The position numbers and the translations under genes were made by a program. Positions 25,980 through 55,836 of a stretch of 64,000 nt of DNA are shown piece after piece. Under the pieces are notes generated by a model that saw only the letters and a program-made list of their open reading frames with translations, was not told the DNA's origin and did not search any database. The stretch comes from Myotis daubentonii (lineage: Eukaryota; Chordata; Mammalia; Chiroptera; Vespertilionidae): NCBI RefSeq assembly GCF_963259705.1, contig NC_081847.1, positions 67,353,754 through 67,417,753 on the forward strand. The letters run 5' to 3'. Within the stretch, counting starts at the first letter, position 1. Every line of letters starts with the position of its first letter.

Positions 25980-26490
25980 GTCTGCCGCAGTGTTGTTTAT
26001 GCTTGAACAAATGGAGACAAGCTCTATGTGCAGTGCCAGGGGCTGGCTATATAAATTATAGCACCATTCAGCTGTTGAAAAGGATGATGTAGATGGAGGT
26101 GGAAAGACTACCGCTAGGATCACCAGGTTGATGAGGGCAGAGATTCTTCTTGTCAATCTAGTTCCTAGGCCCTTAGTAAATATTTTGTGAATAAATGGGA
26201 TCCATACTAGTATATTGTTAAGTACAAAAGCAAGTCTCAGAATGACGTGCATAATTTGGTCACATTTATGTAGGAAAACTGTGTACATATATTGGTATAT
26301 AAATGTGTCAATAAAGATCTGAAAGGAGACACAGCAAACTGTGAATAGTGGTTCCATCTTGGGGAACTGAAGGAAAGTGGAACTTAGGGACTGAAACAGA
26401 GCTTTCATGTTTTAGTCTGTGTAATTGGTGTGCAGATCTTTCACAACAAGTTTGTATTCATCTGTTTCTTGTGTGGCTTGAAAAAATTAC
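25980..26490 (+). mobile_element. Old LINE-1 3'-end fragment, sense
   Basis: The order resembles old LINE-1 3' ends: TGTTGAAAAGGATGATGTAG, ATATTGTTAAGTACAAAAGC, CAAACTGTGAATAGTGGTT and a trailing TTTG-rich part. This explains the 204-codon minus-strand frame at 25794-26408 as chance. Confidence 0.6.
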
Positions 26491-27139
26491 GATGGAAAAA
26501 ATGCAAAGAACCAGAGAAAGAGCAACTTTTGTTTTACCCTTTCCTGCTTCTCTCTCACCTCCCTTGTGCCCTGGGAAGCTGTTCTCTGCTGGGGAGGCCT
26601 CTATGTGGGGAGTTTCAGATCTGGCCTGGCACTGTGGTGCTGCAAGGCCACCTCCTCTCCAGAAAGCTGGAGTGGGCCCTGTTCCCACCCTGCAGAGTAG
26701 CCCCTGGCACCCTTGCCCTTTGCCTATTGTCTCTGCGCAGCCCTTTCCTCTGGCTGCTGTGCATGCTCTTTGCCTTTCATTCTCTTAGCAGCCATTTTTA
26801 CTCATTTTTCTCAAGTTTCAACCCTCTTTCTCTCCCCTCACTCCTCTCTCCACACTTACCTCTCAGAGAAGCATTTGAGGCCTGTTGTTGGGGAATCTTT
26901 TCTTCCTGCTGCTCTTTTCTTCTTGCCTTCTGCATGTTAGCTTATGTAAGTACTCTTGTCCTTTTTATAGAGGCTGCCATCTTTCCTGTTAATATTCTGA
27001 GAAGACAGATACACTACTTTCATTCACCAACTCGGCCTCAGCCTTGACAAACTGGCCTTTGCATGGTGATAAGTAACAGTGATAGGCTTCTGTTTATCAA
27101 AAGCCTGCTCTCTCTTGGTATCATAGCAGGTTCTTTTCT

Positions 27140-27260
27140 GTCTCTTCTTCATGACCCATGAAAGATACACTTCCCCATTTAACAAGTGAGGAGAAACCAA
27201 GGCCCAGAGAAGTAAAGTTCTTTGTCCAGGTTCACATATTTTAGATGTAGATCTGGCTCC
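27140..27260 (-). repeat. MIR-like SINE, reverse
   Basis: CCATTTAACAAGTGAGGAGA, AAGGCCCAGAGAAGTAAAG and TTTGTCCAGGTTCACA match the conserved core of MIR in reverse. Confidence 0.65.
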
Positions 27261-30200
27261 AAAATGTGTATACGCTCCACCTGGCCTGTGTGCCTCTTGT
27301 GAGCCTGAAACAGTTTATTACGTCCTTGGAGCCATCCTCTGATTTGAGCCCTCCATGTCCTAGCTTTCTTCACTGCTGTGGGAGTCCCTAGGAGTTACCT
27401 TGTTCCTGCCAGCAGTGCTGGGACCCTGTAGACCTCCTAGATCATCCTTGACCTTAGCTGAACCTGTGAGGCCCTGAGAGAGGGAAGGGTTTGGTGTAAT
27501 GTGCCCTGGATTCTGTGGTAGACTCCAGCCCAGTTCTGGTAAGAACAGAGTCCCCAAAATGTACTTTGTGGACAGATGTGAATTGTGTGTGTTGGAGTGG
27601 GGAAGGGTGGCTGAGACAATGAAGGGCCCAGCCTCTTTGGAGGTTCCAGGCCTCAGGAAGCCAGGCACTGGCGTTTTGGACCAGACGGCTGGAAGCTCTC
27701 ACAGTGTGGGAATACCTGGATGGAGAGGAATGGGCAGGGGTGGGTCTGTGTCTTCCAGAATGGACTGGGAAGGGCAGAGCTGGTGGCTCAGAGTCTGACA
27801 CCAGCATGTTTCCTCTGGAGCCCCCTTCTGATTAGTGACGAGGCGCTCTTGGTGGCCTGGCTTGTGAAACTGTTTAGGGACAAGTAAGTAGCCTCCAGAA
27901 GAGGCAGTTGCGTATTCTGAGGGCCCAGTGCTGGGGCTTTGTGCCTTATCACTTGCAGTGGGGCCCCGGGGTGCAACTTCAGCTCTGCGATCTTCAGCAC
28001 TTTGTAGTTCAGAGTGGGATAGGAAGCACACGAGTTCCTTTGAGTTAGTGGTGGCAGTGGGTCCAAAGTAGGCAGGTGCAAATCTGGTTCTGTCTTGGCC
28101 CTTGGGCTCGAATGGGTCTTTGATAGGAATGTCTTGGAAACTTGGCTATTTCACTGAGCAGGGACTCTGAGACTCTCCCAAGACACAGAGCCCCATGCTG
28201 CCCACTTACCCTCACTGCCACCTGGCCAGCAGAGCCCATTGAAGGGAGCTTTCTGGAGCAAGAGCACCTGGCTGGAGGGAGAGAAGCCAGAGCCCTGCCT
28301 TCTCTTGCTGTGAGCACTTCTGGCCTCCTGGCCCTGACTGGTGGTTGATCCTATGACCTGAATGAAATGCCAGCAACTAATGGCGGGAAGTGGGTGGCCT
28401 GTCCCGTTTCAGGCCAGGAGTGCATCGGCTTCAACCTCCTCCCCGTTGCTGGCCTCGGTTCACAAGGAGCCCTCTAAAGGGCTTTTGATGTGCATAATGG
28501 ATGTTTGGCTGGACCCAGTTTGTTTGCTTAAGCATTTACTCTTGCCAGTTCATTCGGACCTTCTCTTTCTTTTAAAAATATGCTGCTTGCCAAAGGTTAT
28601 TTTGGATCTGTTTTTGTTTATCAGGTAGGATTGTTCCAGCACAATTGAAAGCAGACCCACAAGTTGACACGCGTTTGAGCTGCTTGCCAGGGCACGCGCA
28701 CACATGCACATGCAGAGTCTGTGGAGAATAGTCCAGAGCCCTAGAAAGCACATGGCTCATGAGTGGGGCCTGGGGAAACTGCCTCTTTCATTGGGGACTT
28801 GTAGCTTGATGATTTTCATCCCCTAGGTGTTAGCAGTGGTAGGATTTCAGGTAGGAAGAAACAAAGGGTTGTTACCTCTTGGGAGTGACAACCTGGTGGG
28901 TTTGATGTAGCTTTGGGATTAGGCTGGCTGGAGTGGAATCTTGGCTCTGCCATGGAGTCTATGGACCTGTTGCTCTGGGACAAGGCTCCCTATGCTGGGG
29001 TCGGCTCACCCCACCTCACAGGCTGCTGTGAGGGCTCCATGCCAGAAGTGGGTGATGGCTCTGGGAGGCAAGCCGTGCCATCTGCTGTTAGCACAGGACA
29101 AGGGAATAGAATGTGGGCCCCTCTACCTATGGTTCCTGTTTGAGTGAGTGGCCCTCTTTTATGGATGCACTTGGGTACTTTCTGCCAGAAGACCTGCAGT
29201 GAATTTCTTCTGAAAACGTAGCTCCGCTGCGTGTACACAGGGCTGCTCAGAAAGCCTTTCTGGAGTTGACTCTCGTAACTCTTTCCTGCCCCCTGGGCCC
29301 ATTGCAACTGGGAGCCACACAGAGGAGCAGTGGTTAAGATTACTCTCTTTTCTATCCCAGGCCAGCAGCGTGGAGGTACTGGTCTAGCTTAGCATTCCCT
29401 AAAGAGGACACTATATCCAGAGGGATAGGTATGTTAGCTCATTGATATTTGACCAACTCAGATAAAAGCATGTAACAAAAGGGAATTTATTTGCTTTACA
29501 TAAGTGCAGGTCAGGGTCCTACTGCTTTTAGCGTGATTGGTTGATTCTAGAGTTTGAAGGCTGTCAGGACAGTCTTCTTCCATTTCTTGACTTAGCTCTG
29601 CCCCAAGTGGCTTCACCCTCAGACAGTCTTTCTCCTTGTGGGGGCTGTGGGCAGCTCTGGGTTACCATCCTTTGAGCTTCTATCCAGTCCCTCTTTCCTG
29701 GCAATGCTACACAAAGTGTAGGGGTCCCAAGGACTCAGGTGCCACTGTAGAAACCTGGCCAGGGAAGCAAGCTGGGGCCCTATTCCACAGATAGTCTACC
29801 TTGGCAGAACTGGGTACTCTGGGCTGATGATCTATGTGATGCTGCCATCACCCCTGGCCTGCTGGAACCCCTATTCTATTTCTAGTCCTAGACCAACAGT
29901 GTCCATATTTGGGGATTTGGAGAAAGTGTCAGTCCTCCCCAGATGGGAGGGGGGGAGATTCACATTTTAACATTTTTTTCAGATTAAAAAAAATTCTTAT
30001 AATTAAAAATTCAATACTACTGAAAAGGATGTAAAAATGACCCCCAGTCCTGCCTCCTGGAGAGCAGCATTGATATGCTCTGTCACACGCTCCACAGACA
30101 GCTCTAGTGAGTGCACAGACAGACACATGCCGGTGACACTAGTGGCATCATATTGTGTATGCTGCGGTGTGTCCTCCACCTCCACTCCCACGCAGCCCAG

Positions 30201-37937: not shown

Positions 37938-40900
37938 GAAAGTCAAGTGTTAGGGCCTCTAGAAATGACAAGCCAATTCTCTGCTAGGCACAGAGTGTGA
38001 GTCTTTAACAGTTGCGCTGAGTGCCTCCCCTGGGCTGAATGGTAGGGGCCCAAACCTAAGTTAGACACTGGCTCTGTCACATGATCAGAGCACATGATCT
38101 GTGGGAGAGCGAGCACCTGGAAGGATAGCACCTGAACGTTGGAGCATACTCAGGAGAAGGGGGGCTGGGAAGAATGGACTGGTTGGCTTTCTTGGAGATG
38201 CGGAGGGCCCTGAGAGGAAAGGAACATATGACCTGCACCTAAAAGACAAACAGGAGTTTACTAGGTGGAAAAGTGAGGGAAGGGCATTCCCATCAGAGGC
38301 AACAGCATGTGCAAAGACCCAGAATAATGGAATAGCAAAGACTGTTCTGTGATAGTTGACCTTTTTGTTTGAATAACAATTATTATAAAACAAAAGCAAA
38401 AACAATCACTCCATTGCATATTGCTGCCATTTTGACCAAGAAATAGCCTCTCATGTGTTCCTCTAGGCCTCTTGTGCCCATCATGGAGAGCTGTCCCTGT
38501 GAGGCTTGGGAGGATGTCTGTGGTCGTGCCAGCAGAGGCCGATGCAGAGTGTTTGCTGGCTAGAGCCTGTGTGTGTTGTCCAGCACTGGAATGTTCTCAG
38601 TCAGGTGATTTGTTTTATTTGGTCATCCAGACTCAAGTGACACAAAAGGGGGCTGATTCATAAAGCTGCAACAGAGTCCAGGCCCCCAAGATGCTTTCTG
38701 CTTGGCACTAGCAGAAGTGAGCAGCCCCTCCGTGCTGCCTGTGGTGATGGCAAAGCACTTGCCAACTACAAGAGCTGGAGGGCCCCCAGGCTACCTCCTG
38801 GGATCTGGACTGCAAAGGAAGCAAATTTGAATCTGTCACCTGTTTGTAGTTTCCTTAATTTTTGATTTGGCATTTTGATCAGTCTGTTTTTGGTCAAGGA
38901 AATGCATCCGTATCTCATAACAGGAAACCCCTTTTGTGATCTTTACTTCAAGGCATTTTTCTCTCTCTCTATTTCCTCCTACCTTTTTTTTTTCTTTTTT
39001 GGCAAAAATGTAGACCTAATATGATGTGCATCTTATTAAAAGTTCAGCATAAATTATTGCCATTGGTTTGTTTACAAAGTAAACAATTCCAAACCACTCA
39101 ATATGGCCTTTCTAAAGTCACTAGTCTTTTTAAAAAGTATTTCTTGGGGCTGAGATTGGGGTGGGAAGATGAAGTCACATGGTCCCGGGCTGCTCCCTGT
39201 CAGTGTCCTGTGTTAATTAGTAGATCGAAGGCAACAATCCAGCAGGCATCCCAGGATGCAGCAGGAACCACCCTGCAGGGGGGCCTGCCTTCCCCATTGG
39301 TGCACAGTCTCAGTGGGGTGGTGGGAACCCAAGAAGTTCTCAGCTCTTTCTCAGCCCTGCCATTCTCCTGCCCACAGAGTCCCCATGGAAAGTGTGAAAG
39401 TGGGGAATAGGAGGAAAGCAAGCCTGAGCAGGCCCCAGCACTTACTTCTTAGCTCTTAGGTGTGCATTGGCCTATGGGGCAGGCTCTGCCTTTCCTGCCT
39501 AATGGAGCACCTCTGTCAGCCCAGGAGTGGAGGAAAGACAGACAGTGGAAGGTGAGGTGGCTCTGGTCCCTAGGGCTGAGCTATCCTAGCTGCCTCTGGA
39601 GGACAGGGCCCTGGCAGGGCATCAGATGGCTACGTCTCCTGTGAGGGGCAGGCCTTGTGGGCACATTGGGATGGCTGGCTCTGGAAACTTCCAAAGCCTC
39701 ACCCTTGGAAAGTGTAGTCCACATAGAATCTTGAAATATAACCAGCTGGATCAGGCCTCCCACCCCTTGGTAGGGAGAAAGGTAGGGCAGAGGCAAGGGG
39801 AGGGAGGGAGTCTGAGCTGACTGTCCCTTGTGGCCGACACTATAGAATGCCCCTCTGACCTTGTCCTGGGCATCCAGAAAACTCCCTGGTCTCCTCTGTA
39901 CAACCCCAAAGTCTAGCATTCAAGGCCATCCTGATGTGCCCTGCCTTACTCCACTGCCACAGCAAACGGAATTTTCATGTTTCCTTAGACACCTTTGCCT
40001 CCTGCTGGCCATACATGATCTGTGGGACCTGTACTCCCTCTTCTGTCAGGAGCATTTGTGTAGGCACTTCATCTTCTGCCTCTCCACCTATACACATCCA
40101 CCCCTTCCGCTGGCCTCTAACCACCAGTTGACACTGTTACCTTGCAGGCAGCACTCTGGAAGTGTGCATTGGCTAAAAGTCCCCTTCAATGCCTCTGGTC
40201 ACGAAAGCTGCACCTCATGTTGTGCATCGCCCAGGTGAGGGGATCTCCTAGAGCCCCAGAGATTTGTAAAAGCTTCTGCAGTCTTTTCTGTAAAAGAATT
40301 AAAGCAAGCATGCAGCCCAAGTGATGGTGACCCCTCGCTGAATTGGCAGCATGGTGCTGGCCTCTGTGCTCCAACCTCTGTGAGCTCATTCTTCCTGGGA
40401 GACCAGAGGTGAGCAGCAGGGAGGAGCAACACAGTGGAATAAGGACATGCAGCGTGGGCCTTACTGTGGGATCCAGGGTCTGGGAGGAGTGGTCAGGGAC
40501 TGGGGTAGGGGAGAAACACGTAGTGAAGGCACTTGATCCCCCAAGGGAGGGATAGCTTGGGATAAATTGGAAATCTAGCACATAGTAGCTGCTTAGGATA
40601 TATGCTTTCCCTTCTCTTGATTACCACTAGGTTTGATGATAACTTTCTGAGAATTATTTTAGGGGGAAAAAAACTCTTCCTGGAGCTACTTTCTGGAGAC
40701 TTGGTTTCACCAATGCCTCCATCTTTGTTTTTGGATTGAGGACTCCGCTCTGGTTTCATTCATGGGAAGAGAGGGTGGTAAAGAACCTTCCAAACTTCAG
40801 GTGGATGGAAGCTGTGTCAGGGAGGAAAACACCTGATGTTGGGAAGCTTGGAATGATAGCCGCCATGACCTCAAGGTAATCTTGAGTCCACAATTACTCG

Positions 40901-40940
40901 ATGTATCCCAGAGCTTCCTGCCTTTTTTTTATTCCTCCAA
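37938..40940. other. Intron stretch, mostly unique
   Basis: It contains the palindromic forkhead-type site at 39068-39086. About 38840-39150 is A/T-rich and shows no repeat signature. No coding signal is supported. Confidence 0.5.
39068..39086. promoter_or_regulatory. Candidate paired forkhead (FOX) site
   Basis: TTGTTTACAAAGTAAACAA is an inverted repeat of the forkhead core TGTTTAC with 8-bp arms and a 3-bp spacer. Function is inferred from the motif alone. Confidence 0.35.
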
Positions 40941-41233
40941 CTAGAGGCCCGCTGCACTAAGAGATTCATACAATAGGCCTTCCTTCCCCTGGCTGCTGGC
41001 ACCGGTTTTCCTCTGACACCTGGGACCCACCCGGCCGCAGCAGAGAAGCCAAGCCTCTTCAGTCTTCAGTCATCTTCAGTCTTCGCTCAGGTGGTGCCTT
41101 CAGTCTTCACTCCGTGCCTGCATATGCAAATCAACTGCCATCTTTGTTGGGTTAATTTGCATAGTCATCCTGATTGGCTGGTGGGCGTGGCAGAGTGACA
41201 CCAATTTGCATGTTTCTCTTTTATTAGTGTAGA
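40941..41233 (-). mobile_element. Helitron A of the head-to-tail array (293 bp)
   Basis: On the minus strand it starts TCTACACTAATAAAAGAG and ends GGGCCTCTAG before a host T. The 3' hairpin is decayed. The start abuts the CTAG of the next unit with no spacer. Confidence 0.85.
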
Positions 41234-41704
41234 CTAGAGGCCCGGTGCACAAAAATTTGTGCATTCGAGGGGGAGGGGGGGTCCCTCAGCCCAGCCTGTG
41301 CCCTCTCGCAGTCTGGGACCCTTCAGGGGATGACCACCTGCTGGCTTAGGCCCGCTCCTCGGGGGTTTGGGCCTAAGATGGCAATCAGACATCCCTCTGG
41401 CAGCCCGGCAGCCCTCGGGGGATGTCCACTTGCCAGCGGGGAGAGGGCCTAAACTGCAGTAGGACATCCTTAGCGCTGCTGAGGAGGCAAGAGAGGCTCC
41501 CACCACCACCGCTGTACTGGCAGCCATCAGCCTGGCTTGTGGCTGAGCAGAGTTCCTCCCATGTGAGAGCGACCTAACCACCAGAGGGCAGCTCCTGCAT
41601 TGGGAGTCTGCCGCCTGGTGGTCAGTGTGTGTCATAGTGACCAGTCATTCCCAGTCTTTCTGCTGTTAGGGTCAGTTTGCATATTACCCTTTTACTACAT
41701 AGGA
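41234..41704 (-). mobile_element. Helitron B, standard-type body (471 bp)
   Basis: The minus-strand end has a hairpin close to GTGCACAAAAATTTGTGCAC followed by CGGGCCTCTAG. The 5' side reads TCCTATGTAGTAAAAGGG. The body has the GACCACCAGGCGGCAGAC-type sequence common in bat Helitrons and lacks the minisatellite found in D. Its 5' end joins the decayed 3' end of C. Confidence 0.85.
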
Positions 41705-42369
41705 TAAGGCCTGGTGCACGGGTGGGGGCCAGCTGGTTTGCCCTGAAGGGTGTCCCAGGTAAGGGTGGGGGTCACGCTTGGGTGCCTGGCCAGCCTGGAT
41801 GAGGGGATGAGGGCTGTTTGCAGCTGGTCACACCCCCTTCAGGGTGGGGGTCCCCACTGGGGTGCCTGGCCAGTCTGGGTGAGGGGCTGAGGGCCGTTTT
41901 CAGGCTGGCGGGTGACTGAAGCTCCCAACCTCTCCTTTTTTTCTTTTTTCTTTTTATTCTGGGATTTATTTACCTTCTGTGGCTGTCACTGAAGCTAAGA
42001 GCCGGCTTTAGCTCTGAGGTTTGGCTCCTGCTCTGAAACCTTGGCTACTGAAAGCAGGTATCTGGGTTTGCTTGGCTTCTATAATTGAAACACTGTAGCA
42101 ACTCTAGCTCTGAAGCCCGTTTCTGGGGATTGTTTAGCTTGTATAATTGCAACATTGATTCTTAGAGTGCAGCTCAGAGGCCGGCAGTGGCAGGTGGGGA
42201 ACCTTGGTTTCCTCCATCACTAGAGCAAGCAAGCCTCCTGTTCGCTTCAGCTGCCTGGCTGCCGGCCGCCATCTTAGTTGGCAGTTAATTTGCATATCAC
42301 CCTGATTAGACAATGGGAAGGGTAGCGAAGTTACGGTTAATTACCATATTTCTCTATTATTAGCTAGGA
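41705..42369 (-). mobile_element. Helitron C, second half of a fused unit (665 bp)
   Basis: On the minus strand it begins TCCTAGCTAATAATAGAG and ends GCACCAGGCCTTA, where the usual CTAG terminator is lost, running straight into TCCTAT of B. It is homologous to E and G. Confidence 0.82.
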
Positions 42370-42534
42370 CTAGAGGCCCGGTGCACAAAAATTTGTGCAC
42401 TGGCAGGGGTGGGAGGTGTCCCTCAGCCCCACTTGTGCCCTCTCACAGTCTGGGACCCCTCGGGAGATAACGACCTGCTGGCTTAGGCCCGCTCCCGCTA
42501 GGGCAGGCCCAATCCCTAGGTGCAGTCCCTGGTC

Positions 42535-42958
42535 AGGCTCAGAGCAGGGCCGATTGGGGAGTTGGGGCGCCGCCCCCTGTCATGCACAGAGCAGGGCGGA
42601 TCTGGAGGTTGCGATGTCACCCCCAGTCACGCTCAGGGTGGGGCCAATTGGGGGGTTGGGGCACCGCCCCCTGTCACACTCAAGGCAGGATCGATGGGGA
42701 GGTTGTGGCGCCATTCCCTGTCATGCACAGAGCAGGGTGGATCAGGGGGTTGTGGTGCTACCCCTGTCACATACAGAGCCGGCTGATCAGGGGGTTGGGG
42801 CGCTGCCCCCTGTCACGCACAGAGCAGGGCCCATCAGGGGGTTGGGGCGCCTTCCCCTGTCACGCACAGAGCAGGGCGGGTAGCGAGGTTGTGGCCCCGC
42901 CCCCTGTCACACACAGAGCTGCAGGGTGATCAGGGGGTTTGGGCGCTGCCCCCTGTCA
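42535..42958. repeat. 47-bp minisatellite, about 9 copies
   Basis: Each unit has CAGAGCAGGG, a GATCAGGGGGTTGGGG-like run and CCCCCTGTCACGCA. The period is 47 bp where measured. The unit contains no stop codon in any forward frame. Confidence 0.92.
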
Positions 42959-42961
42959 CGC

Positions 42962-43340
42962 TGCTCCAGGGGCCAGGAGGCCTTGTGGCTCCGCTGATCC
43001 TAGTGCTGGGAGGCCTCACGGCTCCGCTTGACACTGGGGCAGTGAGGCCTCGAGGCTCTGCTGATCCTGGTGTGGGAGGCTCTGCTGATCCCATGCCAGG
43101 AGGCCTTGCGGCTCCACTGATCCTGGTGCCAGGAGGCCTTGCGGCTCCACTGATCCTGGTGCCAGGAGGCCTTGCGGCTCTGCTGATCCCAGTGCCGGGA
43201 AGCCTCGCGTCTCCGCTGATCCCGGGTTCGGGAGGCCTTGCGGCTCCGCTGATCCCGGGTTCGGGAGGCCTTGCGGCTCCGCTGATCCCAGGTTCGGGAG
43301 GCCTCGCAGCTCCGCTGATCCCGGTGCTGGGAGGCATATT
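42962..43340. repeat. 33-bp minisatellite, about 11 copies
   Basis: Units of about 33 bp contain GGAGGCCTTGCGGCTCC and CTGATCC. Because 33 is a multiple of 3, one frame yields an 11-residue peptide repeat (GGLAAPLILVP). This is a repeat artefact. Confidence 0.92.
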
Positions 43341-43359
43341 ACCCTTTTACTATATAGGA

Positions 43360-44052
43360 TAGAGGCCTGGTGCACGGGTGGGGGCCGGCTGGTTTGCCCT
43401 GAAGGGTGTCCTGGATCAGGGTGGGGGTCCTGCTTGGGTGCCTGGCCAGCCTGGATGAGGGGATGATGGCTGTTTGCAGCTGGTCACACCCCCTTCAGGG
43501 TGGGGGTCCCCACTGGGGTGCCTGGCCAGTCTGGGTGAGGGGCTGAGGGCCGTTTTTAGGCTGGCGGGTGACTGAAGCTCCCAACCTCTCCTTTTTTTCT
43601 TTTCTTTTCTTTTTTATTCTGGGATTTATTTACCTTCTATGGCTGTCACTGGAGCTGAGAGCAGGCTCCAGCTCTGAGGCTGCAGCTGGCTGAAAGCAGA
43701 TATCTGGGTTTGTTTACCTTCTATAATTGAAACATTGTTGCCATCACAGCCACTCTAAGCTCTGAGGCCGAAGCTGGCTGAAAGCAGGTTTCTGGAGCTT
43801 GTTTAGCTTCTATAATTGCAACATAGTTGCTTAGAGTGCAAGCTCAGAGGCCGGCAGCGGCAGGCGGGGAACGTTGGCTTCCTCCGTTGGTTTCTTCCGT
43901 CACTGGAGCAAGCAAACCTCCTGTTCGCTTCAGCTGCCTGGCTGCCGGTTGCCATCTTGGTTGGCAGTTAATTTGCATATCACCCTGATTAGCCAATGGG
44001 AAGGGTAGCGAAGTTACAGTTAATTACCATGTTTCTCTATTATTAGATAGGG
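43360..44052 (-). mobile_element. Helitron E, second half of a fused unit (693 bp)
   Basis: On the minus strand it starts at CCCTATCTAATAATAGAG (first T changed to C) after a host A. It ends GCACCAGGCCTCTA directly against TCCTAT of D. It keeps the ATGCAAATTAACTGCCAACC and AGATGGC-type 5' region. Confidence 0.83.
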
Positions 44053-44694
44053 TGGCCTCATAGGAGAATTTCATATGTATGACTACCCTATTTTCTGTGC
44101 TCAGATGGTAAGCCTCCTTCCCTATGACTCATTCATGTTGTAAAATTATGTATTTTTAAAGAATTGAAACTGTAAATCTATAAAACAACACATAACATAT
44201 AAAGTTATAAAATTGGTTGTTGTTTTTTCTAGCCAGCTCTGTGAAGCTAATCCTATCACATTCCCAGATCTTGGGTTTAAACCAAGTGCTTGCCTCACTT
44301 TGCTGAAAACACTTACCAATTAGCTCCTGGTCAACCCAGCTGACTTCTCCAAGTACTTGGTAGATGCTGGTGGGACATGTCTCATTGAAATCCAGTAGCT
44401 GGGATGGTCAGAAGAACCTGGGGCAGGAGAGAGGGTACATCCTGTGTCCTCTCATGCAGGGAGTGGGGATCCTGCAGTTTAGGGCAATGTTTGGCCAGAT
44501 GTGATGCAGGGTTCTAGAAATCATCTATTACCCTTGGGCCAGAGGGGGCATGTCCCTGGATCAGCTCCTCTTGCTCTCTTGTGCCAATCTGAGTCACCAC
44601 TGTTTTCTTGCACACTGAAAAGACAAAATGTTATGATATCCATGGACACATGACACACTGGCAGGCTTGGAAAAGGGCATTGGGAACCCAAGAG

Positions 44695-44870
44695 CACAGC
44701 CATGGTTCAAATCCAGGCCTGGCTGCTGCTTGCTGTGTGGTCATGGTCCTTTCACTTTTATGACCTTTACTTTCTTCATCTCTCAGATGGAGCAGAGATG
44801 ACTCGTCCTTTCTTCCTTTCATGGTGTCATTGTGAGGATTAAGTCAGAAATGACAAAAATATTGGGGTCC
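44695..44870 (+). repeat. MIR-like SINE
   Basis: GGTTCAAATCCAGGCCTGGC, TTTCTTCATCTCTCAGATGG and TTGTGAGGATTAAGTCAG in MIR order. Confidence 0.75.
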
Positions 44871-45294
44871 CCTGTGGAGATGAGATCTGAGCACCCTGTG
44901 GTTCCTGTTGGGGTGGGGCCTGGACCATGGCTCTGTGCCCTTTCCCACCATGCAAGTGCCGTCCATGGCTTTCTGTGGCTTCAGGGGTTGTCTTCCCCAA
45001 GTGACATTCACTGGTGGGGTTGGCTCCTCAGAAGAGCAGACCCAGCTCTTGTTATCGCCCTGAGTCTGGGTGTGCTAGAACTGGTCTAGAGACCCCTGGA
45101 TAGCTATTCTGGCCACTTACCAGCTGCCTTTCTTCCCGGTCAGGATTTCTCTCATTGTAATTTTTTCTTTTTTTAATCTCCTATTTTTGACTCCAATATT
45201 GTATACTGAAATATGGCCTTTTATCGCATTGCTGGATCTTGATAGGCTAGAATGATGGTAAGAAGCTAATGAAATAAACGATATTATTATGGCA

Positions 45295-45830
45295 ATTATA
45301 TTAATTTCCTATTCCTGTTCCTATTGATTGTATAACAAATTACCACTAAATTTGTGATGCTACTGACTTAGTAGCTTAAAGCAACATACATTTATTCTCT
45401 TACAGTTCTGGAGGTCAGAACTCTGAAATGAGTCTCACTGGGCTAAAATCAAGGGGTCCCAGGGCTAAGTTCCTCCTGGAGCTGTGAGGGAGAATCCCTT
45501 TTTTGCTTTTTCCAGATTCTAGAGGCTGCCTGCATTCTTTGGCAGGTGGCCCCTTCCTCCATCTTCAAGACCAGCAGTGGCTAATGAAGTCTTTATCTTG
45601 ATGATCTCTCTAATTCTGACTCTTCTGCTGCCTCTTCCCTATTTAAGGACCCTTGCAGTAACATTGGTCCCACACAGATAATCCAGAATATTTCCACTTT
45701 TAAGGTTAGCTGATCAGCAACTTTAATGCTGTCTACAACCTTATTTCCCCCTTGTGTATCATAACATACCACAGGTTCCAGGGGTGAGGACCTGTACACC
45801 TCTCAGGGACCATTGCTCTGCCTGCCACAG
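45295..45830 (+). repeat. Old mammal-wide interspersed repeat, family not certain
   Basis: TATAACAAATTACCAC, TACAGTTCTGGAGGTCAGAA, GGCCCCTTCCTCCATCTTCA and CATACCACAGGTTCCAGG are landmarks of a common ancient placental repeat. I do not give it a firm family name. Confidence 0.6.
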
Positions 45831-45859
45831 CAATAAAATTTACAGTCACAGAAACAGCT

Positions 45860-46040
45860 GTTATATCTGGAGTGCTTGCTATGTACTAGACAATTGCATA
45901 AATTTACACAAATCCACACAACTGCCCTGTAGGGAATGGACAGTACCTTGTTTTGGGAGATGAAATAGAGGGGTCACAGTGCTGGCCTGGAGCTTTCACT
46001 AGTAGATGATTGGGGCTGGGATTCCAAGCTGTGTGTGCCT
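45860..46040 (-). repeat. MIR-like SINE, reverse
   Basis: 'gagtgcttgctatgtactag', 'cacacaactgccctgtaggg' and 'attggggctgggattcc' in reverse MIR order. Confidence 0.65.
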
Positions 46041-46059
46041 TAGAGTGCTGCGAGTGTGT

Positions 46060-46410
46060 GTGTGTACATACGTACTGTGTGCGTTGAAGAAATAATCCTA
46101 GTGCTATACAAAAAGTAAAAGCCCCTTCAGTACCTTTTCCAAGAAGTTGGAAATTTTGCTCTTCCAGATATTTCCTATGTATATATAAACATAAATAGAT
46201 ATGTAACGGTTTTTAAACAACTAGGACTACATTATATTTATTGTTTGATGCTTAGGCATTTTTTTCCACATTAATGTTATCCCTCCTCCTTTCCTAAAAG
46301 CAGTGAAGTATATTGCATGCACTATAAATTATTTTTTCTTATTGGGTATTTAATCTGATTCCAAGTGTTTGCGCTTGTTAAAGTTAAATAGGGATAAATG
46401 CAAAATTCGG
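46060..46410 (-). repeat. Old LINE-1-like 3'-region sequence, antisense
   Basis: 'ttcctatgtatatataaaca', 'gactacattatatttattg' and 'tcttattgggtatttaatctg' follow the order in old LINE-1 3' regions. Confidence 0.45.
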
Positions 46411-47562
46411 TAGTTGGTTCTCCCAAACCACCTCCATGAATAGAGACACAATTTTCTGTCAGCATAGGTGGTGATGTGATTGCCTGCCCCAAGGAAGGAT
46501 TGCAGCAGATGTGCCAAAGAGCCTACCTGCTGGCTCCCAGGTTAGACCATGCCATGTGTGGTGTCTCATATTGGGGCCATAATTTAAAGGGGACTTTACC
46601 AAGTTGGAGCAGCAGAGGAAGCCTTGGAGACTTGGTAGCAATGATGAAAGGATATGTAGATGGGCAGTCTCCAATTCCCATCTCTGATAGTGCCCTGGCT
46701 TCCAGCTCGTGCCCACACACTGGCAGATTCTTAGGTATGCACACTTGTTCCTGCTCTCTCTTCTGCCCAGTGAGCTCCCACACCTCTGTGAGGGATTGAC
46801 TCACAGCTTGTGTCCTCTGTGAGTTTGGGCTCAGCATACAGGCAGGACTTGGGGTCATCTGCAGAACTGAAACGTAAGGTGGTGAATTGGTTGGACTTTA
46901 CAGTGCAGGGAAGCCCCCTCTGGCCCTTGGGAGATGCTTCCCAGGAGGTTGTTAAAATGAAAGGGAGGCAGGTGTTGATTCCAGACCTGTGAATTCAGAC
47001 TCCCTGCTCTTCTCCCTCCTTGTTACTCTGCCTGTCCAGTGTCTTCTGTGAGCCCCTTTCCCTTCTCTCCCTGTCCTTTATTCCCTGCATGGCAAGTTGT
47101 TTCTCATCTTTAGCTGTAACACTCCTGACAGGCTGGAGGGGAGAGGAGCTCTGTGGGGTGGGAGTGGGAGGAGGGCCTGGTGCCCAGAGAGAGTTTCAAA
47201 TGTTTCATGAGGTGGGCATGAGCAGAGAGGCTGTATGGTCCTGGGAGAAAGGCCCATGGGTAGAAGGGCATGAGATTTGACAGAGGATCCCACTGGGAAG
47301 GTGGGCCTGCGGGCCTGTGCGGAGTGGCCACTGAAGAGCCTGGGTGGCTGCTAGCATTTGTGTGGTAGGGTGAAGATGAATTTTTCTCATCTAAGTGGAA
47401 AAACAGCCCGATTTTTATCAGGGCAAGTTGGTTTGAGTGTTAGTTAAGTCATTTGTCAAAGCTCATTTAGTTGTCAAAATTAAATCATTCTCCTCCATTT
47501 CCTAGTGGATTGGTTATAATGATAACTTTCTTGGCATGACATTTATCATTCTAGTCCAAAAA

Positions 47563-47589
47563 GGGGACGGGGCGGGTGGGGGCGGGGGG
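47563..47589 (+). other. G-quadruplex motif
   Basis: Five G tracts of 4, 4, 3, 5 and 6 bases with loops of AC, C, T and C. It sits in otherwise ordinary intron about 300 bp before the solo LTR and is not part of a recognised repeat. Confidence 0.75.
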
Positions 47590-47884
47590 AGATATACACA
47601 GAGATATATGCTATTCCTTTTGTGGTAGAAAGATGCTATTTTAATAGTATTTAATTTTTATTCTCACTTATAATATTAGTGTTCATTTAGCTGTAACTGT
47701 GTGCCTGATTTCAAAGCAGAACACCACCAGTGGTCATATTCTCCCAGGAGGGAGACAGGATGAGATGGGCATTACCTCACCTGGCAATGCTGACAATAGC
47801 AGAGAGCAACCCTACAGATAGACTGACTCAATGCCCTCATTTCCAGCCATGAAATTAAAAAATAAAAATTCTAAAATAATTATT

Positions 47885-48628
47885 TGCCGGGAGCCAGTCC
47901 ATCCTTGCTGTTTCAAGGGACCTGGCATATATGGCATACAGTTCTTAATATGTTTGCTCACCTTCTTGGCGCTGTGTTTTAACCAAGGTCACCTCTCCGA
48001 GAAAGGTTGAATCCCCAGGTAGGGATTTTCCCCTGAAGTTAGGGAGGGAATAAAACCCCTTAACTAAGTGCCAGGCGGGTAATTAATCACTTTAACTACA
48101 AACAATCATGCTTAAGCTACATAATCTTTACTCCCTGGAATGGAGATAAGAAACGCCCTAACCTTTGGAATAGAGATTGATAGGATTGAATCAACTGGTA
48201 TAAATACAGTTGTAACAAGACAGAAAGAGACAGAACTTAGAACACAGAACTTAGAACACAGAACTTAGAAGAGAGCCAAGAAGACAGAACCTACACAGAA
48301 CCTACAGTCAGAAGAACTTCGCTGGAGAGAACATGGCAAAAGATCCTGGACTGAACCTGACTATAGAAATACGGCAAGAGAACCTGACTAGAACCTGGTG
48401 ACCGAACCTGGCTGGAGAATCTAGTGAGGGAACATGGCTACAGAACCTGGCTGGAGATCCTAAGCAGAACCTCTCTGGAGATCCAGACCAGAACTTGGCT
48501 GGAGATCCTGGCTAGAGATCCTGGCTAGGCTGCTGATCAACTGAACGCTATCTCCGTGTCATTCCTTCTTCGCCGACTCCATCCACACCTTTGGGGACCC
48601 ATGGACCTGCTGGGGTTGGACCCCGGCA
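47885..48628 (+). mobile_element. Solo LTR of an endogenous retrovirus (744 bp)
   Basis: It begins TGCCGGGAGCC and ends GACCCCGGCA, with the TG...CA form and an inverted TGCCGGG/CCCGGCA end. A perfect 6-bp target duplication ATTATT lies at 47879-47884 and 48629-48634; six bases is usual for class II (beta-like) elements. A TATAAAT box is at 48199-48205. Short direct repeats (CAGAACTTAGAACA; GAACCTGGCTGGAGA) fill the part after it. There is no internal viral gene. The intact ends suggest a fairly recent insertion followed by LTR-LTR recombination. Confidence 0.88.
48199..48205 (+). promoter_or_regulatory. TATA box of the solo LTR
   Basis: TATAAAT lies about 314 bp into the LTR, consistent with the U3/R border region and the same direction as EEFSEC. 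Activity is unknown. Confidence 0.5.
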
Positions 48629-48689
48629 ATTATTTAAAATGTTTGGCTTATAAGCAAAATATCTAAAAACACTTATTTCTTCTTTAATG

Positions 48690-48901
48690 TGGAAGAGAAA
48701 ATGGTTCAATATCTCATTTTTTCAGAAAACCCTTGATTTTTCATTTACATACAAGGTTAGAAACTTTAAAAAGCACAAAAGTTACAGGACAAAGGGTAAA
48801 AGCCTCTCTACTCCAACCCAGGCCTACTCCTATAACTAGTGTTAACAACTTTTCTAAATTTTTCCTAGAAAAAAATTTTTCCTTATACATAGCTGTTTAT
48901 A
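48690..48901 (-). repeat. Old LINE-1-like sequence hosting the Helitrons
   Basis: 'ctataactagtgttaacaac' and 'tttttccttatacatagctg' look like old LINE-1 3'-region sequence. The 5' end of Helitron H begins right after A48901. Confidence 0.4.
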
Positions 48902-48908
48902 TCCTATA
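48902..48908 (+). mobile_element. First 7 bp of Helitron H, cut off by a nested insertion
   Basis: TCCTATA follows a host A (48901). It continues at 50914 as TAATAAAGAGGTAATATGC. Together these give a standard bat Helitron 5' end, broken exactly between A and T. Confidence 0.8.
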
Positions 48909-50339
48909 CTGGAGGCCCGGTGCACAAAAATTTGTGCACTCGGGGGGGAGGGGGGGTACCTCAGCCCGGCCTGTGCCCTCTCACAGTCTGGGACCCCTCG
49001 GGAGATAACGACCTGCTGGCTTAGGCCTGCTCCCGGTGGCAGAGGGCAGGCCCAATCCCTAGGTGCAGCCCCTGGTCGGGCTCAGAGCAGGGCCGATTTG
49101 GGAGTTGGGGCGCCGCCCCCTGTCATGCACAGAGCAGGGCGGATTGGGAGGTTGCGATGCCACCCTCAGTCACGCTCAGGGTAGGGCCGATTGGGGGGTT
49201 GGGGCACTGCCCCCTGTCACACTCAAGGCAGGGTCGATGGGGAGGTTGTGGCGACACCCCCTGTCATGCACAGAGCAGGGCCAATCAGGGGGTTGGGGTG
49301 CTGCCCCCTGTCACGCACAGAGCAAGGCCGATCAGGGGGTTGGGGAGCTCCCCCCTGTTACGCACAGAGCAGGGTCAATCGGGGTTGGGGCGCTGCCCCC
49401 TGTCACGCACAGAGCAGGGCCGATCAGGAGGTTGGGGAGCTCCCCCCTGTCACGCACAGAGCAGGGTCGATCAGGGGGTTGGGGAGCTCCCCCCTGTCAC
49501 GCACAGAGCAGGGTCGATCAGGGGGTTGGGGAGCTCACCCCTGTCATGCACAGAGCAGGGCCCATCAGGGGGTTGGGGAGCTCCCCCGTGTCATGCACAG
49601 AGCAGGGCCGATCAGGGGGTTGGGGAGCTCCCCCCTGTCACGCACAGAGCAGGGCCCATCAGGGGGTTGAGGAGCTCCCCCCTGTCACTCACAGAGTAGG
49701 GCCGATACGGGAGTTGGCACACCACCCCCTGTCACACACAGAGCAGGGTGGATCAGGGGGTTGGGGCCCCGCCCTCTATCACCCACAGAGCAGGGCTGAT
49801 CAGGGGGTTGGGGCGCCGCCACTCTCACACTCAGGGCAGGGCCGATGGGGAGGTTATGGCTCTACCCCATCACACACAGAACAGGGCCCGTGGGGGGGCG
49901 GGGGGTTGGGGCGCCACCCTCCATCACCCACAGAGCAGGGCCGATCAGGGGGTTGGGGCGCCGCCACTCTCACACTCAGGGCAGGGCCGATGGGGAGGTT
50001 ATGGCTCTACCCCGTCACACACAGAGCAGGGCCCGTGGGGTGAGGGGGTTGGGTCGCCGCACCCTGTCACACACAGAGCCGCAGGGTGATCAGGGGGTTG
50101 GGGAGCTCCCCCCTATCAGGCACAGAGCAGGGCCGATCAGGGGTTGGGGCGCCTTCCCCTGTCAGGAACAGAGCAGGGCCGATAGGGAGGTTGTGGCCCC
50201 GCCCCCTGTCACACACAGAGCCGCAGGGCGATCAGGGGGTTTGGGCGCTGCCCCCTGTCACGCTGATCCGGGTGTCGGGAGGCCTCTCAGCTCCGCTGAT
50301 CCCGGTGCTGGGAGGCATATTACCCTTTTACTATATATA
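48909..50339 (-). mobile_element. Helitron F with expanded minisatellite
   Basis: It is homologous to D. Its minus-strand 3' end has the perfect hairpin (48920-48939) and a terminator CCAG in place of CTAG. The inner end reads CTATTATATATAG, where D has CTATCCTATATAG. It is inserted in Helitron H. Confidence 0.85.
49081..50262. repeat. 47-bp minisatellite, about 25 copies
   Basis: Same unit as at 42535. Most central units (49409-49785) are exactly 47 bp apart. A higher-order duplication of about three units is visible at 49785-49921 and 49929-50060. All three forward frames are open over long stretches (326, 180 and 159 codons). Confidence 0.93.
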
Positions 50340-50913
50340 ATAGAGGCCTGGATCAGGGTGGGGGTCCCCACTGGGGTGCCTGGCCAGCCTGGATGAGGGG
50401 ATGATGGCTGTTTGCAGCTGGTCACACCCCCTTCAGGGTGGAGGTCCCCACTGGGGTGCCTGGCCAGTCTGGGTGAGGGGCTGAGGGCTGAAGCTCCCAA
50501 CTGCTCCTTTTTTTCTTTTTTTTTTTTCTTTTTTATTCTGGGCCAGCTTTAGGTCTGAGGCTTGGCTCCAGCTGCTGAAAACAGGTATCTGGTTTGTTTC
50601 GGTTCTATAATCGAAACTCTGTATCAACTCCAGCTCTGAGATCCCAGCTCTCTGAAAGCTGGTTTCTGGGGTTTTGTTTAGCTTCTATATTTGTTACAAT
50701 GTTTTTTAAACTGCAAGCTCAGAGGCCAGCAAGGCAGGCGGGGAACGTTGCAGTCCTCTGTCACTGAAGCAAGCAAGCCTCATGTTCAGTTTAAGCTGCC
50801 TGGCTGCTGGCCGCCATCTTGGCTGGCAGTTAATTTGCATATCGCCCTGATTAGCCAATGGGAAGGGTAGCAGTTGTACTCCAATTACCATGTTTCTCTT
50901 TTATTAGATAGGA
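50340..50913 (-). mobile_element. Helitron G, second half of the fused unit
   Basis: It is homologous to E and C and shorter by internal deletion. On the minus strand it starts with an intact TCCTATCTAATAAAAGAG after host A. It runs into F without a terminator, as E runs into D. Confidence 0.85.
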
Positions 50914-51330
50914 TAATAAAGAGGTAATATGCAAATTAACCCTCAAGCCCTCACAAGATGGCTGCCTACGACCAGGCCGACAGGGGGGTTAGACCAAATG
51001 ACTGAACAAGCAGGCTGCGTGGGGCGACCAGGCCAGCAGGGGAGTTAATGAGGGACGACCAAATGACTGAACAGCAGGCTGCATGGGGTGACCAGGCCAG
51101 TGTGGGGGCCATGAGGGGTAACCAGGCCAGCGGTGGGGGGGCAGTTGGGGGCTACCAGTTGGTAGAGGGGGCCAGTTGGGGGTGACCAGGATGGCAGGGA
51201 GGGCAGTTGGGGGTGATTAGGCTGGTGGGGGGGCAGTTGGGGGCAACCAGGCTAGCAGAAGGGGGCAGTAAAGGGTGACTAGGCCGGCTGGGGGTGGGGG
51301 CAGTTAGGAGTGACCAGGCCGGCAGGGAGG
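50914..51330 (+). mobile_element. Helitron H, remainder
   Basis: From TAATAAAGAGGTAATATGC it continues with AAATTAACCCTCA and CACAAGATGGCTGCC, then tandem G-rich units with GACCAGGCCAGC and GGGGCAGTTGGGGG. No CTAG-terminated hairpin end is found; it is followed by a SINE fragment. Confidence 0.75.
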
Positions 51331-51391
51331 TGCCCTTGACTGGAATCAAACCAGGCTGATGCTCTATCCATTGAGCCAAACCAGCTAGGGT
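51331..51391 (-). mobile_element. Ves SINE head fragment
   Basis: Only the tRNA-like head is left (GTGCCCTTGACTGGAATCAA to GAGCCAAACCAGCTAGGG). It abuts Helitron H. Confidence 0.8.
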
Positions 51392-51399
51392 TTGTCTTA

Positions 51400-53850
51400 G
51401 TATCTTTGCAGCTATTGTTCATATTTATTTTTCAGATGAACTTTTTCAATTGCCAAAAAGTAATTCCTGATATTATAATTAGAATTTTGTTGAATATAGA
51501 TTAATTTAAAGAGAGTTTAGATCTTTATAATCTCTATTCTTCCTGAGAACACTATATGTTTTTCTATTTACTCAGAGTTTTTGCGCTTTCTTCAAATAGA
51601 TCCTACATATTTCTTCCAGTTTTACTAAGCATTTCATCTTTTGGGTTTGCTTATTATCAATTGCATTTTTTTCTTTCGTTGTAATTTTTAATTTGTCTTT
51701 GTATGGAAAAGCTATTGATTTTTAAAATATTAATGCTAAAATCCACCACTGAAACAGACTTCAATATTGTTTCTCTTATTTAAAAAAAATTGATTCTCTT
51801 GAGTTTTCTATTTATATAATTACATCCTTTGCAGATAGTGATAGTTTCCATACTTCCTTTTCAATGTTTAGATCTCCAATTTCCTTTACTTGTCTTCTTA
51901 CATTGTTCTGGAACTACTAAGTTCCATTCCAAATAGCAGACATCTTTTTGTTTGTAATTTTAATGAGAATGTGGTCTCATATATCTTTTTCCTCGTAGTA
52001 AGGAAATAGCCGTTTATTCCTATTTTTTAAAATCAAGAATTGCTATTAAGTTTAAAAACCGTTTTTAGACTCTTTTGGAGTGATTTATAGTTTTTGTCTT
52101 TTGACCTGTTTTATATAATAGATTTTCTAATATTATATTCCAGCATGTATCCTCCTTAGTTGTAGTATATTTTTCTCTTACTGTACTATTAAACTATATT
52201 TTCAGGTATTTTGGTTAAGATGCTTACATTAATATTCATAATTGAAATATCTGTTTGACTTTATCATGTTAAGTTTGGGTATCAGTCTGTTAGTTTCACA
52301 AAAGGCATTTGGGTGCTTTTCTTCTTTATTTTTTTGAACAGTTTAGTTATCAGTTCCTTAGAATATTGAAGGACTTTGTCTCTGAAACCATCTGAACTTA
52401 CTTTTGGAGGATAGCACTTTGATAACTTTAATTTTTTTCCCTTTGCATCTTTCTTACTCTCATCTCTTCTAGAGATAATTTTGATAATATATTTCCTAGC
52501 AAAGTATCTATTTAAGTTATATTTTCAAATTTATTTGCATTGAATTTTGCCAGTAAGTCTTTTCATTTTTTTATGAATATTAATTTCCTATTTTTTAACT
52601 TCTAATTTTGTGTATTTATGCTTTACCATTTTTAAAGAACTTGCTTTTGCATTTATCTATCAATTCTACTATTCTCTTTTCTTTTTTTAAATATATTTTA
52701 TTGATTTTTTTACAGAGAGAAAGGGAGAGGGATAGAGAGTTAGAAACATTGATGAGAGAGAAACATGGATCAGCTGCCTCCTGCACACCCCCTACCGGGG
52801 ATGTGCCTGCAACCAAGGTACATGCCCTTGACCAGAATCGAACCTGGGACCTTTCAGTCCGCAGGCCGACGCTCTATCCACTGAGCCAAACCGGTTAGGG
52901 CTACTATTCTCTTTTCTAATTAAATAACTTATGCTGTTCTCTTTGCTCCATACTTTTCCCCTTGGGTTAATTTTGGTTTTTCTCTAGCTTCCTGACTTAG
53001 AAGCTAGATGTGTTGATCTTATGTAGTTATCTAGGTGGTAAGGTTGTGAATGTCCTCTGAGCACTGTTTTAGATGTGTTCCACTACATATTTTACTGTTA
53101 CTTTCTAGATATTCTGCAACTTCCATTTTAAGTCCTCCTTTGACTCAAGAGTTGTTTAATGAGAAAATCTTCTTTATTTCCAAATTGGGGTTTTTCCTAT
53201 TAGTTTTGTTATGCATTTAGAGTTTTTATTGCACTGTGGGGGAGAATGTGGACTGTGTCATGTCAGCTGTTTGGAGTTTATTGAGTTTTTTTCTTCATGC
53301 CTAATATACAATTTTGTAAATGTTCCAGGAGCTTTTAAAAAGACTTATCTGTTATCAGAATATAAAGTTTTAGATATAAATACACACACACCTTATATTT
53401 CACATATATTTGGCTCTTAGTTTAAGCTAATCACTTATTTTGTTCAGATCCTCTAATAATTACTTTTTCTTTCTCACGGGTGAAAATTGGTTGTTTTTTG
53501 TTTTTCTTTCCTTGCCTGCAATTTATGCGTTACGTATTTTGTTGCTCTGCTTTTTGTTATGTGAATATTTATGATTCATATTCTCATTGCAAATTAAGAC
53601 TTTCATTAATCATTAGTAGCCCCTTTGACTCATTTAACCTTTTCAACCTAGAATTTAGGCTTGTTAGATTTAAATTATGTAATCTAGTTTTCATTTGTTA
53701 GCATAGTAATCTTTATCTTTTTTACTTTTTGTGTGAATCCTGTTATTTTAGATGTGATTCTTATTTACAATACATAGCAGCCTTTTAAAAAAACCAAAAT
53801 GAATTTTAAAAGTCCCACATAGCTCTTCGAACTTCACTTTCTCCATCTAT
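51400..53850 (-). mobile_element. Old LINE-1 fragment, antisense
   Basis: A/T-rich plus strand following the complement of ORF2, for example CTCTGAAACCATCTGAACTT and GACTCAAGAGTTGTTTAATG. It is highly diverged and split by the Ves SINE at 52683. The outer limits are approximate. Confidence 0.65.
52683..52900 (-). mobile_element. Ves SINE in old LINE-1
   Basis: Antisense full copy. A perfect 17-bp target duplication CTACTATTCTCTTTTCT is at 52666-52682 and 52901-52917, the longest in the window. Confidence 0.96.
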
Positions 53851-55768: not shown

Positions 55769-55836
55769 CAGCGGTTGCCAACCTTTCGGACCTCACAGAC
55801 CACTAGTGGACGAGGACCACCAGTTGGCAACTGCTG
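55769..55836. mobile_element. Very short hAT element (68 bp)
   Basis: Ends CAGCGGTTGCCAAC and GTTGGCAACTGCTG are inverted repeats. Flanks GTCTAGAC (55761-55768) and GTTTAGAC (55837-55844) are an 8-bp target duplication with one mismatch. The interior CACTAGTGG is itself palindromic, so the whole element can fold on itself. Confidence 0.85.

Follow-up and report, generated by a model that had tools for sequence, protein, structure and literature searches.

Whether two Helitrons joined end to end, the first of them with a defective 3' terminator, have travelled through a bat genome as a single mobile unit is the question raised by three paired insertions in a 64,000-nt stretch of Myotis daubentonii DNA (assembly GCF_963259705.1, contig NC_081847.1, positions 67,353,754 to 67,417,753; hereafter the window). 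A first-pass annotation had proposed such a fusion from the letters alone. Following it up at the level of the window, of the whole genome and of individual sampled loci, we consider it highly probable (about 0.88) that each unit in the window is a composite non-autonomous Helibat-type Helitron, consisting of a type-1 5' half and a type-2 3' half, which moved as one piece via read-through to the type-2 end.

Three units in the window and their inner junctions

All three units lie on the minus strand, and the limits assigned to them in the first-pass annotation proved accurate almost to the base. Their parts are as follows:

41234..42369, (-): composite Helitron BC, 1136 bp, TCCTAG...CTAG, adjoining the CTAG of DE and the TC of Helitron A
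42370..44052, (-): composite Helitron DE, 1683 bp, first base C in place of the expected T
48909..50913, (-): composite Helitron FG, 2005 bp, splitting the 5' end of Helitron H between A and T
41705..42369, (-): C, hairpinless type-1 5' half of BC
41234..41704, (-): B, type-2 3' half of BC, 471 bp, a module also found free-standing
43360..44052, (-): E, hairpinless type-1 5' half of DE
42370..43359, (-): D, type-2 3' half of DE, carrying 47-bp and 33-bp tandem arrays
50341..50913, (-): G, hairpinless type-1 5' half of FG
48909..50340, (-): F, type-2 3' half of FG, in which the 47-bp unit is repeated ~25 times
41694..41719, (-): inner junction of BC, CCAGGCCTTA|TCCTATGTAG, boundary 41705/41704
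43349..43375, (-): inner junction of DE, CCAGGCCTCTA|TCCTATATAG, boundary 43360/43359
50330..50351, (-): inner junction of FG, CCAGGCCTCTA|TTATATATAG, boundary 50341/50340
41245..41264, (-): outer 3' hairpin of BC, 11 nt from the end, fold -7.4 kcal/mol
42381..42400, (-): outer 3' hairpin of DE, fold -10.3 kcal/mol
48920..48939, (-): outer 3' hairpin of FG, fold -12.4 kcal/mol

The outer 5' ends read TCCTATCTAATA (FG), TCCTAGCTAATA (BC), and CCCTATCTAATA (DE), and the outer 3' ends are CTAG (BC, DE) and CCAG (FG), each situated 11 nt past a palindrome around GTGCACAAATTTTTGTGCAC, the first base of which differs in BC. The units thus carry a 5' TC and a 3' CTRR end, except that DE starts with CC and FG stops with CCAG. 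Tandem arrays fill the D-type 3' module at 42527-43335 (DE) and 49083-50261 (FG), with nine copies of the 47-bp unit in DE and about 25 in FG, and about eleven copies of the 33-bp unit in DE. An Rfam search of 40000-52000 yielded no matches, and no Pfam match to a RepHel transposase was obtained in the six open reading frames checked, out of 13 of at least 100 aa in the region. Since non-autonomous members lack RepHel by definition, its absence does not exclude the units from the Helibat group, a family name that we assume here from the termini.

Within each unit, a second, dead Helitron junction without a hairpin is preserved, reading CTA|TCCTAT with TTA in place of CTA in BC, and with TTATAT as the second start in FG. 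The first-pass annotation had described a fossil junction in B+C and D+E, and this holds for both, given the hairpinless inner 3' end and the presence of the outer Helitron ends; its description of CTAG turned into TTA or CTA and running straight into TCCTAT applies to BC (TTA) and DE (CTA), but fails at the second start of FG. Folded as DNA, the last 40 nt reached -7.4 to -12.4 kcal/mol at the outer termini of BC, DE, and FG and -3.0 to -5.8 kcal/mol at the inner ones; Helitron A next door, at -3.1 kcal/mol, has an outer terminus as weak as these inner ones. C and E have retained the right hairpin arm (GTGCAC) alone, and G has lost this arm as well by a deletion between two CCAGG repeats. The earlier statement that the inner end had "lost its hairpin arm" is therefore correct as to the absence of the inner hairpin; the loss itself is what we infer, no hairpin-bearing ancestor of the 5' partner having been found. 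Chance likeness was rejected for the 18-mer spanning the junction, which matched the window twice at up to three mismatches against 0.07 matches expected, BC escaping this search because of a 1-nt gap. A damaged CTAG at the inner 3' end together with intact outer ends was found both in the window and in the sampled loci described below.

Under the reading that we prefer, a type-1 element with a 3' end devoid of hairpin and CTAG would have come to lie directly upstream of a complete type-2 element, the join between the two corresponding to the A|TC insertion boundary of the latter. Transposition would start at the type-1 5' TC, pass the dead inner 3' end, and stop at the type-2 hairpin and CTAG, so that both halves would move as one piece. 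The first composite would have arisen through read-through by a RepHel transposase, would have been made once and then amplified, and its 3' module would later have changed from B to D within the composite.

A different cause of the same structure is a possibility that we take seriously without favouring it: the type-2 element may have inserted between the A and the G of a working type-1 CTAG and thereby destroyed the terminator, or it may have inserted near that end, with the transposase using the first working 3' end. Insertion into CTAG would leave CTA|TC without any separate deletion, and a nested origin is proposed in studies on maize (PMC3288121) and on Fusarium (PMC5148889), the latter also proposing transposase use of the first working 3' end for its composites. 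Against this, the usual target is A^T and not A^G, and the absence of the left hairpin arm would have to be accounted for separately.

Abundance of the junction and descent of the fused form

The genome from which the window was taken (2.13 Gb, 121 contigs) was searched for exact pattern matches. The junction 18-mer CCAGGCCTCTATCCTATA was present in 13,417 exact copies and its reversed control in none, and the same ends joined with the G kept (intact CTAG|; CCAGGCCTCTAGTCCTATA) occurred at 589 places. A genome-wide search for the inner junction was the check suggested in the first-pass annotation, in which a junction limited to the local copies was to speak for duplication of the segment; the junction instead occurs thousands of times, with both outer ends located at 27 of 28 sampled loci. 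A 21-mer from the hairpinless core gave 16,030 copies. Among the first 100 listed of these, 45 had the exact junction within 60 bases, a number that rises to 52 when exact type-2 B starts up to 150 bases away are counted too, and the exact 21-mer was conversely present at 45 of 90 junction places. If about half of the true copies have lost either word by mutation, these figures fit a core that is nearly always fused, and they suggest roughly 25,000-30,000 fused copies in the genome, part of which would stem from later duplication. Scans of viral contigs for the junction and for the 3' end returned no matches, and a literature search by Helitron end sequence found nothing.

For a closer view, 28 of the first 29 junction places listed on contig C1 (4097498 being left out) were taken as a non-random sample (L001-L028). 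In every one of the 28, the type-2 5' end directly followed the junction. Both outer ends could be located in 27 loci, with uncertainty in L017 (5' end, start misplaced owing to a nested Helitron) and L027 (3' end, decayed). A 5' TC was present in 27/28 and an intact CTAG in 25/27 loci, preceded by A at the 5' end in 24/28 and followed by T at the 3' end in 26/27; these last two counts, together with the empty sites of FG and of the DE|BC|A array described below, are those of an A/T insertion that leaves the target unduplicated. Outer stems of 5 bp or more were found in 26/27 loci and an inner stem in 1/28, so that the palindrome 10-12 nt before the 3' end that marks Helibats, at 11 nt in the window, has its counterpart in the sample. 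The 3' half carried the B module in ten loci and the D module in 18, with D-type 3' halves ranging from 352 to 1730 bp, and the first element measured 435-792 bp in 26 of the 28 copies.

A tree of the 5' halves was calculated for 28 rows, i.e., 25 sampled loci plus BC, DE, and FG, after dropping L009 (no 3' end placed) as well as L010 and L017 (5' half >1000 bp). On this tree, a single change separates D-type copies on one side of a branch from B-type copies making up the rest, compared with a mean of 8.5 changes when types were shuffled at random (0/500 shuffles as low as 1). The branch setting D-type apart is weakly supported (61/29; 57% of 200 bootstrap trees), and DE is placed among B-type copies beside BC. 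When only the three window copies are compared, the 5' halves place C with E and the arrays in the 3' halves place D with F, a conflict that the 28-row tree, within the limits of this weak branch support, largely resolves. Distances between copies in the 5' half correlate with those over the last 130 bp at the 3' end, as expected of one inherited unit, both for the tree set minus L015 and L027 (Mantel r 0.44, 0/5000 permutations, n=26) and for D-type copies alone (r 0.31, 23/5000 permutations, n=18).

This correlation bears on the idea that the same two families were inserted side by side independently many times and that their inner ends decayed later. Helitrons do enter the A|TC boundary of older ones, as in DE|BC|A and at the junction of locus L048, but tandem insertions leave CTAG|TC, whereas the fused copies read CTA|TC with the same arm missing and stand at 13,417 against 589. 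Together with the Mantel result, this strongly disfavours repeated independent pairing, which we regard as very improbable.

Inheritance of the composite was, however, not wholly as one block. Outside CpG, FG differs from DE at 37/256 positions in the first 300 columns and at 9/167 near the junction (p 0.004), and L010, L015, and L027 combine the usual hairpinless core, junction, and B module with a 5' module of another kind, a form that is possibly the older composite. From the uneven divergence of FG and this other 5' module it follows that the 5' part was exchanged at least once. The simplest reading would be one ancestral fusion, followed by exchange of the 5' module and of the interior of the 3' module; the uneven divergence along FG fits a 5' module exchange of this kind.

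Insertion history and the two halves on their own

The surroundings of the units in the window contain two further Helitrons:

40941..41233, (-): Helitron A, 293 bp, heading the array and closing with a CTAG of its own; ends GCCTCTAG|T
48902..48908, (+): first 7 bases of Helitron H, severed by FG
50914..51320, (+): Helitron H beyond FG; over its 26-bp 5' end, H shares 81-88% identity with B/D/F and 62-73% with A/C/E/G

DE, BC, and A are arrayed head to tail, and the intact CTAG|TC junctions between them exemplify a junction that has not decayed; the sequences on either side of the array join as A^T. The first ~97 bp of Helitron A are 73-77% identical to C/E/G, by which A appears related to the type-1 5' half, if distantly. 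Rejoining the flanks of FG gives TCCTATA|TAATAAAGAGGTAATATGC, a clean A^T empty site. Similarity between units amounts to 90-93% inside versus 23-33% outside at the 5' end and to 97-100% inside versus 43% outside at the 3' end, DE and BC being 73% similar beyond the 3' end because another Helitron start comes after each. With its empty site and with similarity ending at the outer termini, FG (48909-50913) is the independent insertion that the first-pass annotation took it to be. Helitron H has no visible 3' end and runs into a tRNA-like SINE head on the minus strand (51323-51390), presumably Ves-like and with a gap of about 17 bp relative to other copies. Two other elements were noted nearby: a segment from TGCCGGGAG to CCCCGGCA with ATTATT on either side (47885-48628), which we take to resemble a solitary LTR, and a short element (55769-55836) with inverted ends CAGCGGTTGCCAACC / AGTTGGCAACTGCTG and flanks GTCTAGAC / GTTTAGAC, which in our assumption resembles a small hAT-type element.

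Flanks of 200 bp were compared across the 28 sampled loci (53 flanks; L017 was left out on its 5' side, L009 and L027 on their 3' side), and no pair of loci had a flank in common in register at the same end; such matches as were found were out of register, mostly repeat-like, or from two neighbouring stretches. The 28 loci are therefore separate insertions, which supports movement of the fused form as one element. That two elements became one mobile unit, as the first-pass annotation had it, is in agreement with this; the causal order that it added, fusion once the inner terminator had failed, is less secure, as it may have been the insertion of the second element that put the terminator out of action.

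A tandem pair that arose once by accident and was then multiplied by local or segmental duplication has in its favour that BC and DE are adjacent and that four loci (L048, L049, L052, L054) do have common flanks at about 97-99%. Such duplication is nevertheless refuted as the main cause, and hardly credible, in view of the 13,417 junction copies genome-wide, the flank comparison, the end of similarity at the outer termini in the window, and the clean empty site of FG. The four loci in question are copies of one segmental duplication on contig C1 (7.35-9.42 Mb), with about 97-99% identity along most of the duplicated stretch, as a result of which copy counts exceed insertion counts. L049 carries an extra Helitron in its 3' flank that is absent from L048, L052, and L054.

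The type-2 half was sampled by its B start at the first 16 of 6,132 listed places, chosen regardless of the preceding sequence. Twelve of these were plainly fused, one was fused but interrupted (L048), and three were free-standing, namely L043 (3' end not found) and L056 in unrelated flank and L050 after the CTAG of another Helitron. L050 is a place in L021, and L041, L045, and L053 are the same places as L003, L014, and L022. With L048, L049, L052, and L054 counted once as copies of one segmental duplication, 13 independent loci remain (10 fused, 3 free-standing); L039 holds a further free-standing type-2 element. L048, considered as a free-standing type-2 copy, was rejected as such and is actually a fused copy whose junction was later entered by another Helitron: a 1046-bp Helitron (L048:440-1486) sits exactly between the A and the T of the inner junction, with L049 as the empty site. 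The inner junction thus still serves as a Helitron target.

The hairpinless core, allowing up to two substitutions, was matched 47 times in the loci examined, at 43 distinct places, all of them fused, L048 in its interrupted form; all but three of the 43 (L009, L018, L024) had been chosen by a pattern lying on the junction or beside it. At the places examined, type-1 elements ending in this way, whether hairpin-bearing or hairpinless, were never found free-standing. The hairpinless-type 3' end with CTAG gave 276 places, and the 12 examined comprised three fused junctions in which the first base of the type-2 start had changed and nine places without the core. As to the separate existence of the halves, the 3' half is thus found free-standing, the 5' half has been seen only fused, and Helitron A is a distant relative. 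A single ordinary Helitron family with a junction-like interior by chance, though the fused form does now behave as one element, is refuted by the free-standing type-2 copies (L043, with its 3' end not found, L056, L050, L039), and with a similar 5' end also starting Helitron H in the window we give it next to no credence.

Significance and comparison with known systems

The composites illustrate a route of growth for mobile DNA that was earlier known on a small scale and is clear here at a large one. Read-through had been seen in cell culture and in one natural exemplar, and a composite of the read-through type here makes up a family whose copies run to many thousands; one of the two partners still occurs alone, and module changes can be read on both sides. 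Terminator loss, fusion, module exchange, and amplification thereby become datable across bat species and testable in the Helraiser assay. More speculatively, one read-through fusion might have founded a dominant Helitron lineage of this bat, the dead junction staying fixed while the 5' module and the 3' interior were swapped, so that the failure of a terminator would have given rise to a more successful element; composites born by bypass might even be a main source of new Helitron families, a thought that we offer tentatively.

Among sequenced mammals, Helitrons are confined to vespertilionid bats according to PMC4778049, and PMC4971623 describes two old, low-copy Helitrons common to vespertilionid and other bats. 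The Helibat-type ends and the Ves-like SINEs fit a vespertilionid host. The units resemble Helraiser/Helibat of Myotis lucifugus (PMC4778049) in the 5' TC, the 3' CTAG, and the A/T target, the Helraiser palindrome being 19 bp long and 11 nt from the end. In the Helraiser experiments reported there, deletion of the hairpin lowered transposition and raised read-through, with a 1.6-kb downstream marker carried in at least 36% of events without the hairpin and in about 11.7% with it; the same source reports natural insertions abutting other Helitrons and one exemplar bypassing a CTAG that lacked a palindrome. The composites described here are what read-through of the Helraiser type would be expected to leave. 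In Helraiser, however, 39/395 copies had new 3' ends (PMC4778049), whereas the fused form here constitutes a family with >13,000 exact-junction copies. No fused bat Helitron family of such size was found in the open-access papers surveyed.

Maize helitron_mc2 (PMC3288121) is likewise multi-copy and has inner 3' ends with a damaged CTAG, but this plant case was traced to nested Helitrons, whereas the bat case is an end-to-end junction in a mammal with >13,000 copies. FoHeli composites of Fusarium (PMC5148889) share more than one 5' end and a single working 3' terminus with the bat form; they differ in being non-canonical fungal elements with a duplicated 5' part of typically <200 bp, compared with the 435-792 bp of the bat first element. 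Adjacent head-to-tail Helitrons in maize (PMC2267711) show CTAG|TC junctions like those between DE, BC, and A, and the same paper cites Pritham and Feschotte for head-to-tail Helitrons in Myotis; the pairs of PMC2267711 are, however, separate neighbours, each with its own CTAG end, and not a fused unit as in the bat. The mechanism is not new (PMC4778049, PMC3288121, PMC5148889), and the bat composite adds a mammalian case of very high copy number to a kind already known, standing out by its scale and its legibility.
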